A DNA stretch of 58,867 nt from an uncultured Spirochaetaceae bacterium (GTDB lineage: Bacteria > Spirochaetota > Spirochaetia > Treponematales > Treponemataceae). Location of the stretch: positions 1 through 58,867 of the forward strand of contig CACYWZ010000009.1 of NCBI GenBank assembly GCA_902778325.1. The letters run 5' to 3'. The notes under the pieces were generated by a model. That model saw only the letters and a list, made by a program, of their open reading frames with translations, was not told the DNA's origin and did no database searches. The translations under genes and the position numbers were made by a program. This document shows, in pieces, positions 17,329-40,220 of the stretch; position 1 is the first letter of the stretch, and every line of letters starts with the position of its first letter.

Positions 17329-17919
17329 TCAGAACGCAACAGAAGATTTTCCTTGCGTGATGTCGAAAATGCGCTCTGAAAACGATTTGGCTTCGTCTGA
17401 AAAAATCAGCCCTTTTATCGCTATCGCCTCTGCAAAGTCCTCGCCTTCGATTTCGAGGTGAAAATCCTTGAAGGCACGCTTTACGATGTCGTATTTGTCG
17501 TATTGAACGCTCACGGAAAACTCTTGTTTTGCGACGAGCGGCTCTGTTTCGGCGACGGCAAGAACGTCTTTCGCTCCTCCAGAGTACGCCCGCGAAAGTC
17601 CGCCTGTTCCCAAGAGCGTTCCTCCGAAATATCTCGTTACGGTAATGAGAATGTTTGTGATTCCGCTCCCTTTGAGCACTTCAAGAACGGGGCGTCCCGC
17701 AGTCCCGCTCGGCTCTCCGTCGTCGCTCATGCCCATAATTCCGCCCGTCTCGCCCGTGATGAAAGCGTGAACGACGTGTGTTGCGTCCTCGTATTTTTCT
17801 TTTTGGGCGCGAAGGACTTCGCGAGCCTCTGCCTGGCTTTTCACGGGGAAGGCTTCGCTTATGAATCTTGAGCCTTTGATTATGCACTCAGCGAGCGCGG
17901 GAGATTTCAGGACGTTCAT
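17329..17919 (-). CDS. yigZ: YigZ/IMPACT family protein, 196 aa
   Basis: I start at ATG 17919 (MNVLKSPALAECIIKGSRF), which has GGAG 9 nt upstream and overlaps the preceding stop as ATGA; the longer start at 17940 has no ribosome site. The N-terminal UPF0029 domain contains HVVHAFI, SDDGEPSGTAGRP, VTRYFGGTLLGTGGLSRAY, the family signature; the C-terminal about 70 residues fit DUF1949. The IMPACT family is linked to translation/stress control in eukaryotes; the bacterial role is not settled. Coupled to the membrane protein upstream. Confidence 0.9.
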   Translation of the reverse strand: MNVLKSPALAECIIKGSRFISEAFPVKSQAEAREVLRAQKEKYEDATHVVHAFITGETGGIMGMSDDGEPSGTAGRPVLEVLKGSGITNILITVTRYFGGTLLGTGGLSRAYSGGAKDVLAVAETEPLVAKQEFSVSVQYDKYDIVKRAFKDFHLEIEGEDFAEAIAIKGLIFSDEAKSFSERIFDITQGKSSVAF

Positions 17920-18797
17920 TGGCTTTTCTCCGAAAGGCATTTTATATCAACAAAATCGATTTGCAGCTGCGCGCTTTGCTCCATAAAAATGTCGTAGACA
18001 ATCGGGATTAAAAGGTAGAGGAAAGCTTGCGTTGAATAGAGCGTGAAGACGTAATAGAAATTGGAGAACGCCGACAGAAGGGCGAACAGCGAGGACTTTG
18101 TGAGAGATGACATTGTCGAGAATAAAAACAGAGCGACAATCGTGGCGAAAAGGCGCACAAAACGAGGAGCGAGCGCTTTGAAAAAGATTTTCAGGAAGAG
18201 AAGCTTTCTTCCTTTCAAAAGCGAGCGGCTTCGACTGAAGACCGCCTTTTGCTTTTCAGGCTCTTTTGAAAGGATGCACCAGACGAAACTGAACGGAAAG
18301 AAAAGTGCCGCGATTAACAAGAAGAACGCAATTACAAGAAGCCCTATCGTAAGGAAGTTCGGCATTCCGTCTTTCATCGGGTTTATGCGGAAGACGGCTA
18401 TCGCAATGCTGAGGATGAAAACTGAGGCGAAAAGGATTGCTGCAAACGTGATTGCATAGCGGAACAGCGCTTTGAAATGCCTGAAGCCGTCAAAAAGAAA
18501 GCCGAATGTCACGAAATCTCTGCGTGACAATCTGATGAGGATTTGGTTCAGACCGTAAAACAAGAGCATTACGGTTGTCAAAAATGTGAGCGTCATAAAA
18601 ACTGTGGCGATTATCGAGATTACAGGCGGAAGAGCGCTGAGCGCAGGCAGGAAAAAGCGCATGGAGAGGATAGCCAATATTGTTTCGGCAATGTTTAATG
18701 CAAAAATTGTGATTACGATTTTTCCAAGATGGTGTTTTGCGCAAGTGTTTAGCCGATGAATGGCTAGCGCGATTGTTTGTTTTTCTGTTTGAATCAT
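17916..18797 (-). CDS. Multi-pass inner-membrane protein, 293 aa
   Basis: About six hydrophobic segments are visible (for example KIVITIFALNIAETILAIL, YAITFAAILFASVFILSIA, FLTIGLLVIAFFLLIAALFF), with basic loops such as RSRSLLKGRKLL between the fourth and fifth. The general pattern resembles DUF975-like integral membrane proteins, but I cannot assign it. TGA overlaps the yigZ ATG. No signal peptide or catalytic motif seen. Confidence 0.65.
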   Translation of the reverse strand: MIQTEKQTIALAIHRLNTCAKHHLGKIVITIFALNIAETILAILSMRFFLPALSALPPVISIIATVFMTLTFLTTVMLLFYGLNQILIRLSRRDFVTFGFLFDGFRHFKALFRYAITFAAILFASVFILSIAIAVFRINPMKDGMPNFLTIGLLVIAFFLLIAALFFPFSFVWCILSKEPEKQKAVFSRSRSLLKGRKLLFLKIFFKALAPRFVRLFATIVALFLFSTMSSLTKSSLFALLSAFSNFYYVFTLYSTQAFLYLLIPIVYDIFMEQSAQLQIDFVDIKCLSEKSQ

Positions 18798-18929
18798 TTT
18801 TCCCTCAAAAAACTACAGGTGCTTCCTGATTCTAGCACGTTTTTGACCGTTTTGAAAATGGCAAAAGCCTCTCATTTGTGCAAAATGTAATATTTATGCA
18901 ATTTATGTAAAGAAAATGTATATATATGC

Positions 18930-18958
18930 TTGACAGCGCTCTTTTTTATTGCTAAAGT
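18930..18958 (+). promoter_or_regulatory. Promoter of the DAHP synthase leader
   Basis: TTGACA (18930-18935), 17-nt spacer, TAAAGT (18953-18958). The predicted start site is about 18965, at or next to the leader-peptide ATG. A second TATATA stretch at 18919-18926 could give a slightly longer leader. Confidence 0.7.
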
Positions 18959-18964
18959 AGGCTC

Positions 18965-19048
18965 ATGAAAACAAGAAATATCGGCGCATTTTATTACTAT
19001 TTGTACTCTCTAAACCCTTGCGAAGGTGTTTCTTGCCGCTCGAACTAA
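18965..19048 (+). CDS. Tyrosine-codon leader peptide of DAHP synthase, 27 aa
   Basis: ATG AAA ACA ... TAA encodes a 27-residue peptide containing Phe-Tyr-Tyr-Tyr-Leu-Tyr at residues 9-14 (codons TTT TAT TAC TAT TTG TAC, 18989-19006). It is followed by Cys- and Ser-containing residues and a stop 35 nt before a terminator. Position, length and codon run match leader peptides of ribosome-mediated attenuators, with Tyr the end product of the downstream pathway. The codons after the Tyr run (19022-19037) also form one arm of the antiterminator. The upstream AAAGTAGG could act as a weak ribosome site if transcription starts earlier. Confidence 0.8.
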   Translation: MKTRNIGAFYYYLYSLNPCEGVSCRSN

Positions 19049-19118
19049 TTCGATGCGGTTTTTGCTTGAAACTGGCAACAGAAGAACCTTCCAAGAGCTT
19101 TGGAGGGTTCTTTTTTTT
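19022..19118 (+). promoter_or_regulatory. Attenuator: antiterminator and terminator alternatives
   Basis: Terminator: 19083-19092 pairs with 19102-19111 (AGAACCTTCC / GGAGGGTTCT), then T8 to 19118. Antiterminator: 19022-19037 pairs with 19074-19091 (TTGCC with GGCAA, TTTC with GAAG after a 2-nt bulge, AAGGT with ACCTT), which occupies the 5' arm of the terminator. A third hairpin, 36-44 with 49-58 (CCGCTCGAA-CTAA-TTCGATGCGG, numbering 190xx), sequesters part of the antiterminator. A ribosome stalled on the Tyr codons leaves 19022 onward free; one reaching the stop codon covers it. Confidence 0.75.
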
Positions 19119-19169
19119 ATATTTTACACAACGCCATTGTTATTGATGGCAGAATATAAGGAGTTTTAT

Positions 19170-20198
19170 ATGATAGTTGTTTTGAAAAACGATGTGTCTG
19201 AGCAGAAAGTGCAGGATTTTATGTCTGGCTTGAAAAGTCGCGGGCTTGATGTCCACGTTTCAAAAGGCGCAACAACGACTGTTTTGGGCTTAATCGGCGA
19301 CACTTCGAAAATCGAGCCTGAAGAGCTTTTGGCTTACGATTTCGTTGAGAGTGCGCAAAGAGTCAAAGCTCCTTACAAACAGGCGAGCCGCTCTTTCCAT
19401 CCGCAAAACACTGTCGTGAGCGTTCACGGAGTAGACGGCTTGGGCGCAGACATAGGAGATGGCAAGACTTGCGCGATTATGGCAGGTCCTTGCTCTGTTG
19501 AAACCGAAGCGCAGATTATCGAGGTCGCAAAAGACGTTAAAGCCTCTGGTGCGCGCTTCCTTCGAGGCGGAGCATTCAAGCCTCGCACTTCTCCATACAG
19601 CTTTCAGGGCTTGGGCGCGGACGGCTTGGAGCTTTTGAAGCTGGCACGAAAAGAAACAGGTTTGCCGATTGTCACAGAGCTTATGGCGATAAATCAGATT
19701 CCGCTTTTCGAGGACGTGGACATTATCCAAATCGGAGCGCGCAATATGCAGAACTTTGACTTGTTGAAGGAAGTCGGAAAACTAAAGCAGCCGATTTTGC
19801 TGAAGCGCGGACTTGCCTCGACGGTCAAAGAGTTTTTGATGAGCGCAGAATACATCATGGCGAGCGGCAATCAGAACGTAATCCTTTGCGAGCGCGGAAT
19901 CCGTACATTCGACAACTACACACGAAATTGTCTTGATTTGTCTATCGTTCCTTACCTTAAAAAAGAAACACATCTTCCTGTCATCATCGACCCAAGTCAC
20001 GCCTGCGGCATTCGCTACATGGTGCCGACATTGGCAAAAGCAGCTGTTGCGGTGGGCGCAGACGGTCTTATCATCGAGGTTCACAACAATCCAGAAAAGG
20101 CTTTGTGCGATGGCGAGCAGTCGCTGACTCCAAAGCAGTTCGACGACACAATGAAGCTCTTGTCAAAATACGCTGCTGTTGAAGGCAGAACGCTCTAA
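19170..20198 (+). CDS. aroF: 3-deoxy-7-phosphoheptulonate (DAHP) synthase with N-terminal regulatory domain, 342 aa
   Basis: I start at ATG 19170 (MIVVLKNDVSEQKVQDF), with ATAAGGAG 6 nt upstream; the open frame extends back through the attenuator but that part is not coding. Residues 1-70 form the ferredoxin-like regulatory domain of the Thermotoga-type (I-beta) enzymes; the barrel begins near residue 95. Landmarks: AIMAGPCSVETEAQI with metal Cys, SPYSFQGLG, PILLKRGL, ILCERGIRTF and IIDPSHACG with metal His. It condenses PEP and erythrose-4-phosphate, first step of aromatic amino acid synthesis. The leader predicts repression when charged tRNA-Tyr is plentiful; allosteric control by aromatic amino acids is typical of this class. 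Confidence 0.92.
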   Translation: MIVVLKNDVSEQKVQDFMSGLKSRGLDVHVSKGATTTVLGLIGDTSKIEPEELLAYDFVESAQRVKAPYKQASRSFHPQNTVVSVHGVDGLGADIGDGKTCAIMAGPCSVETEAQIIEVAKDVKASGARFLRGGAFKPRTSPYSFQGLGADGLELLKLARKETGLPIVTELMAINQIPLFEDVDIIQIGARNMQNFDLLKEVGKLKQPILLKRGLASTVKEFLMSAEYIMASGNQNVILCERGIRTFDNYTRNCLDLSIVPYLKKETHLPVIIDPSHACGIRYMVPTLAKAAVAVGADGLIIEVHNNPEKALCDGEQSLTPKQFDDTMKLLSKYAAVEGRTL

Positions 20199-20260: not shown

Positions 20261-20286
20261 TCGCCTTCCTTCACGCCGTTTTCTTG

Positions 20287-20468
20287 TCGTAGTCACTACG
20301 AAGCATTTCTGGCATGCAAATCTTGAATCGTAGCCACTACGAAGCGTTTCCCGCATGCAAATCTTGAATCGTAGTCGCTACGAAGCGTTTCTGGCATGCA
20401 AATCTTTAATCGTAGTCACTACGAAGCATTTCCCGCATACAAATCCTCAATCGTAGTCACTACGAAGC
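20287..20468. repeat. Tandem array, exact 41-nt period, five TCGTAGTnACTACGA palindromes
   Basis: Palindromic cores begin at 20287, 20328, 20369, 20410 and 20451, always 41 nt apart. Core TCGTAGT-C-ACTACGA is a 7+1+7 perfect inverted repeat in most units (one unit has a GCC variant). A secondary GCATGC lies mid-unit. It follows the aroF terminator. From 20469 to the promoter at 20686 I see nothing else convincing. Confidence 0.9.
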
Positions 20469-20685
20469 TCGTTTGGCAAAAAGGGAGCTTCGTAGAAAAA
20501 AAACGAGGGCAGGCGCGCTTTTCAAAGTACTTCGTATCTTGAAATGAAAGCAGTGTGTTGTACAATCCCTTCTTTTCTCCTGCGTGTTTATCGATTCCCG
20601 TGTAACTAAAGCTTTTGTCTTCGTTGCATTAGAACTTACAAACTGCGTCATCCATAAAAATTGCGTTTTCTTCTTTCTCCTTTCA

Positions 20686-20715
20686 TTGACGAATATAGGA
20701 TATACTCCATATAAT
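20686..20715 (+). promoter_or_regulatory. Promoter of the toxin-antitoxin pair
   Basis: TTGACG (20686-20691), 18-nt spacer, TATAAT (20710-20715). The predicted start is about 20722, the A of the toxin ATG, so the transcript may be leaderless. No Shine-Dalgarno is visible. Confidence 0.7.
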
Positions 20716-20721
20716 ATGGCT

Positions 20722-21078
20722 ATGGATACTTATGAGGTTATCTTTTACGATTTACCAGATGGCAGCAAACCTGTGAAAGATTTTATGGACACGCTTGACG
20801 CAAAAATGTTTGCAAAAGTTGTCAGGACTTTGGAGATGATAAAGCAAGCTGGTCCTAATTTGCGTCTGCCGTATTCAGAACATCTTGATGACGGTGTTTT
20901 TGAAATTCGTGCCAAGCAAGGTTCAAATATCACACGAGTGTTGTATTTTTTCTTTGTGGGCAAAAAAATCATTCTTACAAATGGGTTTGTAAAGAAGACT
21001 CAAAAGACCCCAAAAAGCCAGATAGAATTGGCAAAAAAATACAGAGAAGAATATAAATCCAGAGGAGAAAAGAAATGA
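20722..21078 (+). CDS. RelE/HigB-type toxin (phage Gp49-like), 118 aa
   Basis: I start at MDTYEVIFYDLPDG (20722); an ATG two codons earlier lies directly against the -10 box. The protein has the HigB/Gp49 pattern: VKDFMDTL, then GVFEIRAKQGSNITRVLYFFFVGKKIILTNGFVKKTQKTP with the conserved basic residues, and a C-terminal A-KYREEY helix. Family members are ribosome-dependent mRNA interferases. The antitoxin gene overlaps by 4 nt (ATGA), and the toxin-first order is typical of higBA modules. Confidence 0.88.
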   Translation: MDTYEVIFYDLPDGSKPVKDFMDTLDAKMFAKVVRTLEMIKQAGPNLRLPYSEHLDDGVFEIRAKQGSNITRVLYFFFVGKKIILTNGFVKKTQKTPKSQIELAKKYREEYKSRGEKK

Positions 21079-21353
21079 CAGATTATGATTCTTATGTTGC
21101 AGAAAAGCTTAAAGACCCAGAATTTAAGGCAGAATATGATGCTCTTGAGCCAGAGTTTGCTATTATCCAAGAGATAATCAATGTTAGAAAAGAATGTGGG
21201 CTTACGCAAAAAGAGCTTTCTGCAAGAACAGGGATTGCGCAAGCGGACATCAGCAAGTTGGAGAGGGGAAATGCAAATCCGTCTTTGCGCACACTAAAGC
21301 GACTTGCTGCAGGAATGGGCAGAACTCTTAAAGTTGAGTTTGCAAGAATGTAA
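21075..21353 (+). CDS. HigA-type XRE antitoxin, 92 aa
   Basis: The N-terminal half is a linker (FKAEYDALEPEFAIIQEI). A helix-turn-helix follows at about residues 38-90: GLTQKELSARTGIAQADISKLERGNANPSLRTLKRLAAGMG. It is expected to bind the toxin and repress the shared promoter. It begins inside the toxin gene's last codons, so the two are translationally coupled; AGAGGAGAAAAGAA precedes the ATG. Confidence 0.9.
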   Translation: MTDYDSYVAEKLKDPEFKAEYDALEPEFAIIQEIINVRKECGLTQKELSARTGIAQADISKLERGNANPSLRTLKRLAAGMGRTLKVEFARM

Positions 21354-40146: not shown

Positions 40147-40220
40147 GCGCGATTAGCTCAGTTGGTTAGAGTACAAGCATGACACGCTTGGGGTCACTAG
40201 TTCGATTCTAGTATCGCGCA
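40147..40220 (+). tRNA. tRNA-Val (anticodon GAC)
   Basis: A 74-nt cloverleaf: acceptor GCGCGAT/ATCGCGC, anticodon stem CAAGC/GCTTG around ATGACAC (anticodon GAC), T arm ACTAG/CTAGT with loop TTCGATT, discriminator A. CCA is not encoded. TACCGCATAT (40133-40142) and ATATGCGGTA (40224-40233) flank it as a perfect 10-bp stem in the precursor. Confidence 0.95.

Follow-up and report, generated by a model that had tools for sequence, protein, structure and literature searches.

A predicted tyrosine-codon attenuator, probably leaderless, upstream of the DAHP synthase gene aroF in treponemes

Introduction

What controls transcription of aroF, the gene encoding 3-deoxy-7-phosphoheptulonate (DAHP) synthase, in an uncultured bacterium of the Spirochaetaceae? 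The question is raised by a locus in the window, that is, the whole stretch of 58,867 nucleotides analysed here, in which a promoter, a 27-codon ORF, an antiterminator strand and an intrinsic terminator lie between positions 18930 and 19120, all of them 5' of the gene. A preliminary description, made from the sequence alone, had read these elements as a ribosome-mediated attenuator responding to tyrosine. In enteric bacteria, tyrosine synthesis is governed by the TyrR repressor, and the attenuators trpL and pheL combine a protector, an antiterminator, a terminator and control codons for the product of the pathway. The predicted treponeme device is alike in its antiterminator, terminator and control codons and in a putative protector, and it differs from trpL and pheL in its Tyr codons and in a leader that would start near the predicted +1, mostly without a Shine-Dalgarno sequence.

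The aroF locus

The features of the locus are collected in Table 1. The product of aroF was recognised by the profiles NF006421 (476.9 bits, cut-off 335) and TIGR01361 (388.9 bits, cut-off 267.75), in agreement with the DAHP synthase named beforehand, and we take it to be a type I-beta enzyme. All the elements previously described were found in the sequence, with coordinates correct within a few bases. Thus, the promoter and the ORF with its Phe-Tyr-Tyr-Tyr-Leu-Tyr codons are where they had been placed, the terminator assigned to 19083-19118 corresponds to the stem and U run listed in the table, and the proposed pairing of 19022-19037 with 19074-19091 is the core of a longer one, between 19016-19039 and 19072-19096 (-23.6 kcal/mol; equalled by 1 of 100 dinucleotide shuffles), whose 5' strand lies before the leader stop, as had been stated. 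Two features had no place in that account, namely the near-zero 5' UTR and the protector pairing of strands 1 and 2.

Table 1. Features of the aroF leader region, in window coordinates
Feature	Position	Strand	Basis or remark
Sigma-70-type promoter, TTGACA - 17 nt - TAAAGT	18930..18958	+	10/12 consensus positions
Leader peptide ORF, 27 codons + TAA	18965..19048	+	ATG 18965, TAA 19046-19048; MKTRNIGAFYYYLYSLNPCEGVSCRSN
Strand 1 (putative protector), pairs with 19019-19035 on the ribosome-free leader	18972..18988	+	MFE of the untranslated leader
Control codons Phe Tyr Tyr Tyr Leu Tyr	18989..19006	+	Read from the sequence; composition compared across the genus
TCTC element, shortly 3' of the last Tyr codon	19007..19010	+	Frequent in related leaders
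Strand 2, antiterminator 5' strand, within the leader ORF	19016..19039	+	Pairing
Hairpin whose loop carries the leader stop codon	19036..19058	+	Strong in the window, but not supported as a general part
Strand 3, antiterminator 3' strand, takes in the terminator 5' arm	19072..19096	+	Pairing, folding
Intrinsic terminator, stem about 19081-19113, then U run	19081..19120	+	-18.8 kcal/mol
Shine-Dalgarno AAGGAG of aroF	19158..19163	+	SD energy -7.7 kcal/mol
aroF, DAHP synthase, 342 aa	19170..20198	+	NF006421 and TIGR01361 profile matches

A scan of 5 kb gave 9 promoter-like sites, against 6.3 in shuffled sequences, and 6 terminator-like sites, against 6.7. The promoter and the terminator are unremarkable by consensus alone; it is their combination and conservation that stand out. 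The neighbouring ORF 5' of the device (17916-18797) is divergent, on the minus strand, and the terminator therefore does not belong to it. On the other side of aroF, repeated units with CGTAGT..CTACGAAG palindromes occupy 20280-20480, and 20584-21353 holds a Gp49-like ORF (PF05973) whose end is overlapped by a helix-turn-helix ORF (PF01381); the two presumably resemble a toxin-antitoxin pair.

Conservation of leader and terminator among relatives

When 201 genomes of the genus were searched, the single-domain DAHP synthase was set apart from a longer paralogue (about 50% identity), and the DNA upstream of the single-domain copies was compared at the 115 loci with at least 300 nt of it (112 from the genus and 3 from other families of the order). 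L005, L134 and L221, with less than 300 nt upstream, were excluded, and the gene of genome G134, 33 nt from a contig end, lay outside the sample. A leader was counted when an ORF of 10-60 codons held at least 3 Tyr and at least 4 aromatic residues within 10 codons. Leaders of this kind precede 96 of the 115 orthologues, whereas shuffled upstream regions gave a mean of 6.0 and a maximum of 9 over 20 rounds; when the same test was applied to the 36 ORFs of at least 200 aa in the window, two passed, the aroF locus among them. For 95/96 of the related leaders, it was possible to assign a highest-scoring promoter followed by a start codon.

A first terminator scan was positive at all 96 leader loci. 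With a stricter one (-10 kcal/mol or lower), a terminator was found at 95/96 loci with a leader and at 1/16 without (L190), and strong terminators were also present at L165, L167 and L173, three loci counted apart since their leaders, identified by eye, fall just below the Tyr threshold. From this co-occurrence, leader and terminator appear to come and go together, the device as a whole being missing from 16/115 orthologues. At six loci that lack the leader (L014, L200, L203, L211, L213, L215), another ORF apparently ends close upstream, as judged by eye. The comparison of relatives called for in the preliminary description thus gave the opposite of the outcome that was to count against an attenuator, that is, the absence of the ORF and of the stems: both leader and terminator are jointly conserved. 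Tyr-rich leaders were also seen in other genera of the family (L263, L268, L269, L270) and in termite-gut treponemes (L035, L074), and none was seen in the upstream regions read at L024, L025, L026, L032 and L273.

A leader probably starting at the RNA 5' end

Each promoter was scored blind to start codons and then assigned the first in-frame ATG downstream of it. In the window, this ATG lies 6 nt 3' of the -10 hexamer, near the predicted transcription start. The same holds throughout the relatives: all 87 leaders starting with ATG have it in frame 1-10 nt past the -10 box, mostly at 6-9 nt, and it stands at 6-10 nt in 24 of the 26 divergent representatives described below. A Shine-Dalgarno sequence of -4 kcal/mol or lower was detected in 3/87 of these leaders versus 87/87 of the aroF genes behind them. 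The leader of the window is one of the three (-4.8 kcal/mol), its energy coming from an AGG three bases before the ATG, which is probably too close to the start codon to serve and likely untranscribed. Taking into account that 84 of the 87 leaders are devoid of a Shine-Dalgarno sequence and that their ATG lies so close to the -10 box, the treponeme attenuator leader is predicted to be, probably, leaderless.

Eight leaders start with TTG. L020, L022 and L217 have a Shine-Dalgarno sequence, and their starts are 21-25 nt away from the -10 box; for the remaining five, an earlier TTG at 11-12 nt was selected by the script. Outside the treponemes, 14/17 leaders, chosen from the flagged ones, carry a Shine-Dalgarno sequence. 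The genome of the window has 29 occurrences of the promoter-to-ATG pattern described above and 9 of its reverse; 11 of the 25 cases that could be read open ORFs of at least 185 codons, which suggests that leaderless messages are not uncommon there.

Pairing strands and their covariation

Strand 2 was sought as the best partner of the terminator 5' arm in the stretch that runs from the last Tyr codon to a point 10 nt short of the terminator; the overlap of antiterminator and terminator arm, seen in 96/96 loci, is a consequence of the sequence given to the pairing program and is not evidence. The strand had been described as beginning where a ribosome stalled at the last Tyr codon would leave it free, and the spacing agrees with this across the relatives, in which the strand starts a median of 18 nt after that codon (13-36 nt, 5-95%) within search stretches of roughly 47-74 nt. 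In 75 of 96 loci the pairing ranks within the best 5% of 100 shuffles, and in 51 within the best 1%. For the structural tests, L196 and L198 were left out because their terminators were mis-assigned, and L136 because no start was placed.

Covariation was assessed by a swap test, in which the pairing of each locus is compared with pairings swapped between loci. It was run on 26 representatives below 75% identity (from 94; two dropped), because related sequences inflate the counts. It was preferred to pair counts from a MAFFT alignment, since in such an alignment of 23 leaders of one clade the pairing strands looked shifted by eye. The 2:3 pairing gave z -5.8 and the inner helix z -4.1, with none of 10000 permutations as good in either case, against z -0.3 and -1.5 for mid-leader and promoter controls. 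The antiterminator strand therefore covaries with the terminator arm among these representatives, as the preliminary description had suggested should be looked for. At single loci, 3/26 (2:3) and 5/26 (inner helix) beat 95% of swaps. The value for the terminator itself (3:4, z -12.0) is built in, the arms having been selected as a hairpin, and is not evidence.

The untranslated leader of the window folds 18972-18988 on 19019-19035, which would hide the antiterminator strand. In the swap test on the 26 representatives, pairing of the leader start with strand 2 gave z -3.6, a value matched by 5 of 10000 permutations. Pairing of the leader start with the region past the stop codon gave z between -0.7 and -5.4 over seven start stretches, so that the best value is a selected one. 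Some protector at the 5' end is therefore likely, in one form or another. Two other candidate pairings were dropped. That of the Tyr codons with strand 2 gave z -0.4 in the representatives, and the stop-codon hairpin, although rank 0 of 100 shuffles in the window, is not a general part of the device (mean z -0.77; within the best 5% in 5/26 representatives).

Control codons and the amino acid sensed

Between the first and last Tyr of the control run, Tyr accounts for 472 of 706 residues (67%), although this stretch, as defined, has to begin and end with Tyr; in the best 10-codon stretch of the representatives, Tyr reaches 0.46 and Phe 0.17. Phe or Trp stands immediately after the last Tyr in 44/96 leaders. 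Beyond these codons, counts by codon position gave no sign of a general peptide-level constraint in 21 leader pairs, in which differences at positions 1, 2 and 3 number 89, 92 and 106, with no clear third-position excess, and 55 synonymous codon differences stand against 143 non-synonymous ones. Absence of peptide conservation is usual for leader peptides. The 122 Tyr codons in these pairs were unchanged in 98 cases, synonymous in 6, swapped to Phe or Trp in 7 and lost in 11.

The sequence TCTC is present in 77/96 leaders versus 12/544 background pieces of 24 nt. It was often seen inside TTTTCTC, 2-13 nt past the last Tyr codon, and it is spread over all three frames (48, 23 and 6), hence it is not a peptide motif; possibly it is a polymerase pause signal. 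As regards other amino acids, 12 of the 21 runs of four His codons in the same genome were examined, and none looked leader-like by eye (4 had a short ORF with an in-frame start, and the other 8 had no such ORF).

The gene context also bears on the amino acid. On the same strand and within 600 nt downstream, tyrA follows at 87/118 loci, and at 67/96 of those with a leader. In the genome of the window, tyrA is unlinked to aroF (contig C38; PF02153 + PF20463), and no Tyr leader was found in the stretch read before it. There, between an IMP dehydrogenase gene (PF00478) and tyrA (L111, about 2080-2290), lie some four tandem units, each a GC-rich inverted repeat with a T run. The second DAHP synthase of this genome, its copy of the longer paralogue mentioned above, is a 647-aa fusion with prephenate dehydratase (PF00793 + PF00800; contig C31, locus L113), located between ORFs for homoserine dehydrogenase and the acetolactate synthase small subunit. 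It overlaps the preceding ORF by one base, leaving no room for a leader. The tree set included three fused copies, and the loose leader test picked out L027 among them. We infer that the single-domain enzyme is the copy of the tyrosine branch and the fused enzyme that of the phenylalanine branch.

Proposed mechanism and alternative explanations

Taken with joint conservation, spacing, covariation, Tyr as the commonest control residue and the adjacency of tyrA in relatives, the earlier reading holds up well, and it is very probable that the device is a ribosome-mediated transcription attenuator sensing the charging of tRNA-Tyr. It is proposed that transcription begins at or next to the leader AUG, and that a ribosome binds the 5' end of the RNA and trails RNA polymerase. 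With plentiful Tyr-tRNA, the ribosome would reach the stop codon and cover strand 2, the terminator would form and aroF would be off. With scarce Tyr-tRNA, it would stall on the Tyr codons, breaking the 1:2 protector and leaving strand 2 free to pair with strand 3 before the terminator 3' arm is made, so that aroF would be transcribed. The comparison of sequences shows the conserved anatomy, the spacing and the covarying 2:3 pairing, whereas the +1 position, leader translation, stalling and tyrosine-responsive read-through are inferred.

Folding of the RNA ahead of the ribosome agrees with this scheme. In these calculations the terminator 3' arm does not yet exist and RNA behind the leading edge of the ribosome is omitted, for which reason the stop-codon state differs partly by construction. 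When the ribosome stands at the last Tyr codon, the terminator 5' arm is pre-paired (P>0.5) in 88/93 loci, compared with 19/93 when it stands at the stop codon, and pre-pairing is higher in the former state at 92/93. When the whole leader is folded with no ribosome, the arm is pre-paired (P>0.5) in 59/93, and termination as the untranslated default is not clearly predicted for all loci. At equilibrium, the full-length RNA favours the terminator in every state (mean P 0.85 to 0.93), even when stalled (0.85); therefore, the switch must act cotranscriptionally, as classical attenuators do. By folding and covariation, antiterminator and terminator would be mutually exclusive, the antiterminator being freed at the control codons and blocked at the stop codon.

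The same attenuator might sense Phe, Tyr and Trp jointly rather than tyrosine specifically, which we regard as unlikely. DAHP synthase feeds all three aromatic amino acids, the control stretch has some Phe beside its Tyr, Phe or Trp often stands right behind the last Tyr, the non-spirochaete leaders at the same gene are mixed, and the Phe-Tyr-Phe leader aroR of Corynebacterium glutamicum is described as responding to Phe, not Tyr (PMC11802643). However, Tyr is the commonest control residue, the gene is linked to tyrA in relatives, and the fused DAHP synthase could serve the Phe branch. A different sensor would be a leader peptide arrested by free tyrosine, as in TnaC, instead of by uncharged tRNA. 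Leaders of related species do have peptide segments in common around the Tyr run; but the peptides diverge outside the control codons, the TCTC element falls in all three frames and hence provides no peptide motif, and arrest by free tyrosine would presumably raise aroF at high tyrosine, the wrong direction. This makes such an arrest very improbable.

Equally improbable is that the ORF is there by chance and the RNA an untranslated switch (T-box, riboswitch or protein-bound attenuator), even if a terminator and an alternative pairing could operate without an ORF. Against it, the Tyr codons recur in 96/115 loci with an in-frame ATG at the promoter, the pairing strand lies at ribosome distance from them, and no Rfam family reaches its gathering score here, the best weak match being Phe_leader (RF01859; 24.7 bits versus 55). 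A T-box or riboswitch was rejected as a candidate, the sole match at gathering score in the window being a tRNA at 40147-40220; T-boxes were likewise missing from the weak matches in 18880-19260. That the terminator is an ordinary one with some read-through and no regulation is scarcely credible: terminator- and promoter-like sites are no commoner here than in shuffles, yet the upstream gene is divergent, terminator and leader are gained and lost jointly, and a competing, covarying antiterminator is conserved.

Occurrence outside the treponemes

Attenuator-like leaders at this gene were also sought outside the spirochaetes, in 73 loci with at least 200 nt upstream, taken from the best 80 of at least 593 matches in named genomes, mostly Clostridia. 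With a slightly different test (at least 5 aromatic residues and 2 Tyr in 10 codons), 47/73 of the loci from these best 80 matches pass, against a mean of 4.7 and a maximum of 9 in shuffles, and some of the 47 are likely to be chance. The test stretch of these leaders contains Tyr at 0.35 and Phe at 0.33, so by codon content the treponeme leaders look Tyr-dominated, whereas many Clostridia have mixed ones before this gene. Mixed Phe/Tyr leaders include L036, L037, L040, L043, L085 and L094, and stretches like GTGGTTTGTG recur past their stop codons, as seen by eye. Rfam gave no match at gathering score in 16 non-spirochaete loci, except an FMN riboswitch in L044.

In a FastTree tree, 43 rows from treponemes and related bacteria form one clade (local support 99), and the group with TTG starts, represented by L021, is placed with moderate support among clostridial genes, which suggests that it may have acquired gene and attenuator together by transfer. 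A different architecture was seen in L274, L275, L276 and L279 (family f22, possibly Brachyspira). There, the Tyr/Phe leader looks leaderless, its peptide ends in FFYYGV or the like, and a GC hairpin lies across its stop codon, overlapping the last codons, 5' of the DAHP synthase gene. In the hairpin of L276, one paired position differs on both sides, by eye, and L277 and L278 apparently hold a duplicated, interrupted copy of the gene start.

It could tentatively be proposed, as an idea that is possible but doubtful, that attenuators with aromatic leaders form a large class, as yet unnamed, which controls this DAHP synthase both in Clostridia and in spirochaetes. Its treponeme branch would have become tyrosine-specific and leaderless, and the 5' end would refold on the post-stop strand after transcription has moved beyond the stop codon, so that a single pioneer ribosome decides.

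Relation to known attenuators

Attenuators of this design had been called well known in proteobacteria, which is right, and nearer precedents are reported in Corynebacterium, proposed in Acholeplasma, hypothesised at E. coli aroF and predicted in Leptospira. Ribosome-mediated transcription attenuation is reported for aroR-aroF of C. glutamicum (Neshat et al. 2014; PMC11802643; leader in PMC4046766). Its likeness to the treponeme device, compared here by description, is an aromatic-codon leader peptide before a DAHP synthase gene, and the difference lies in the Phe-Tyr-Phe codons and the reported response to Phe but not Tyr limitation. For E. coli aroF-tyrA, a Tyr-tRNA attenuator was hypothesised (Camakaris et al. 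1980, cited in PMC2659441; also PMC8632094), with the same signal, tyrosine, and the same targets, DAHP synthase and tyrA. There it is a hypothesis, likened here by description, and thus tyrosine sensing at this gene is not a new idea. In Acholeplasma, the motif uORFC-13-1 is a predicted uORF with a terminator before aroF (24 representatives), described with Phe codon(s) and from Acholeplasma and environmental sequences only (PMC8632094).

Leader ORFs at the RNA 5' end, or devoid of a ribosome binding site, are described for trpL of Sinorhizobium meliloti, which is leaderless (PMC7298713), and for the RBS-less ilvB leader of C. glutamicum (Morbach et al. 2000), although these serve Trp or branched-chain amino acids in other phyla. 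Within the spirochaetes, the "ilvB motif" of Leptospira is a predicted attenuator with a Val-rich uORF (seven representatives; PMC10272879). It resembles the present device as a leader-peptide attenuator predicted in a spirochaete and differs in its gene, ilvB, and in its branched-chain amino acids; this prediction is the only spirochaete leader-peptide precedent found in the open-access literature searched. In the same literature, which mostly leaves subscription papers outside its scope, neither a Tyr attenuator in a treponeme nor a conserved, Tyr-dominated leader at aroF was found reported. The genus-wide spirochaete system therefore appears to be new, the mechanism itself being classical attenuation.

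Implications for treponeme biology

The DAHP synthase attenuator with a described response, that of C. glutamicum, tracks Phe, not Tyr, according to the account available. The system predicted here would place classical attenuation in a phylum in which one earlier prediction, that of Leptospira, was met. In sum, a Tyr-codon attenuator present in most of the genus and probably leaderless would provide a simple, testable rule for the way in which gut treponemes may balance their aromatic amino acid synthesis.
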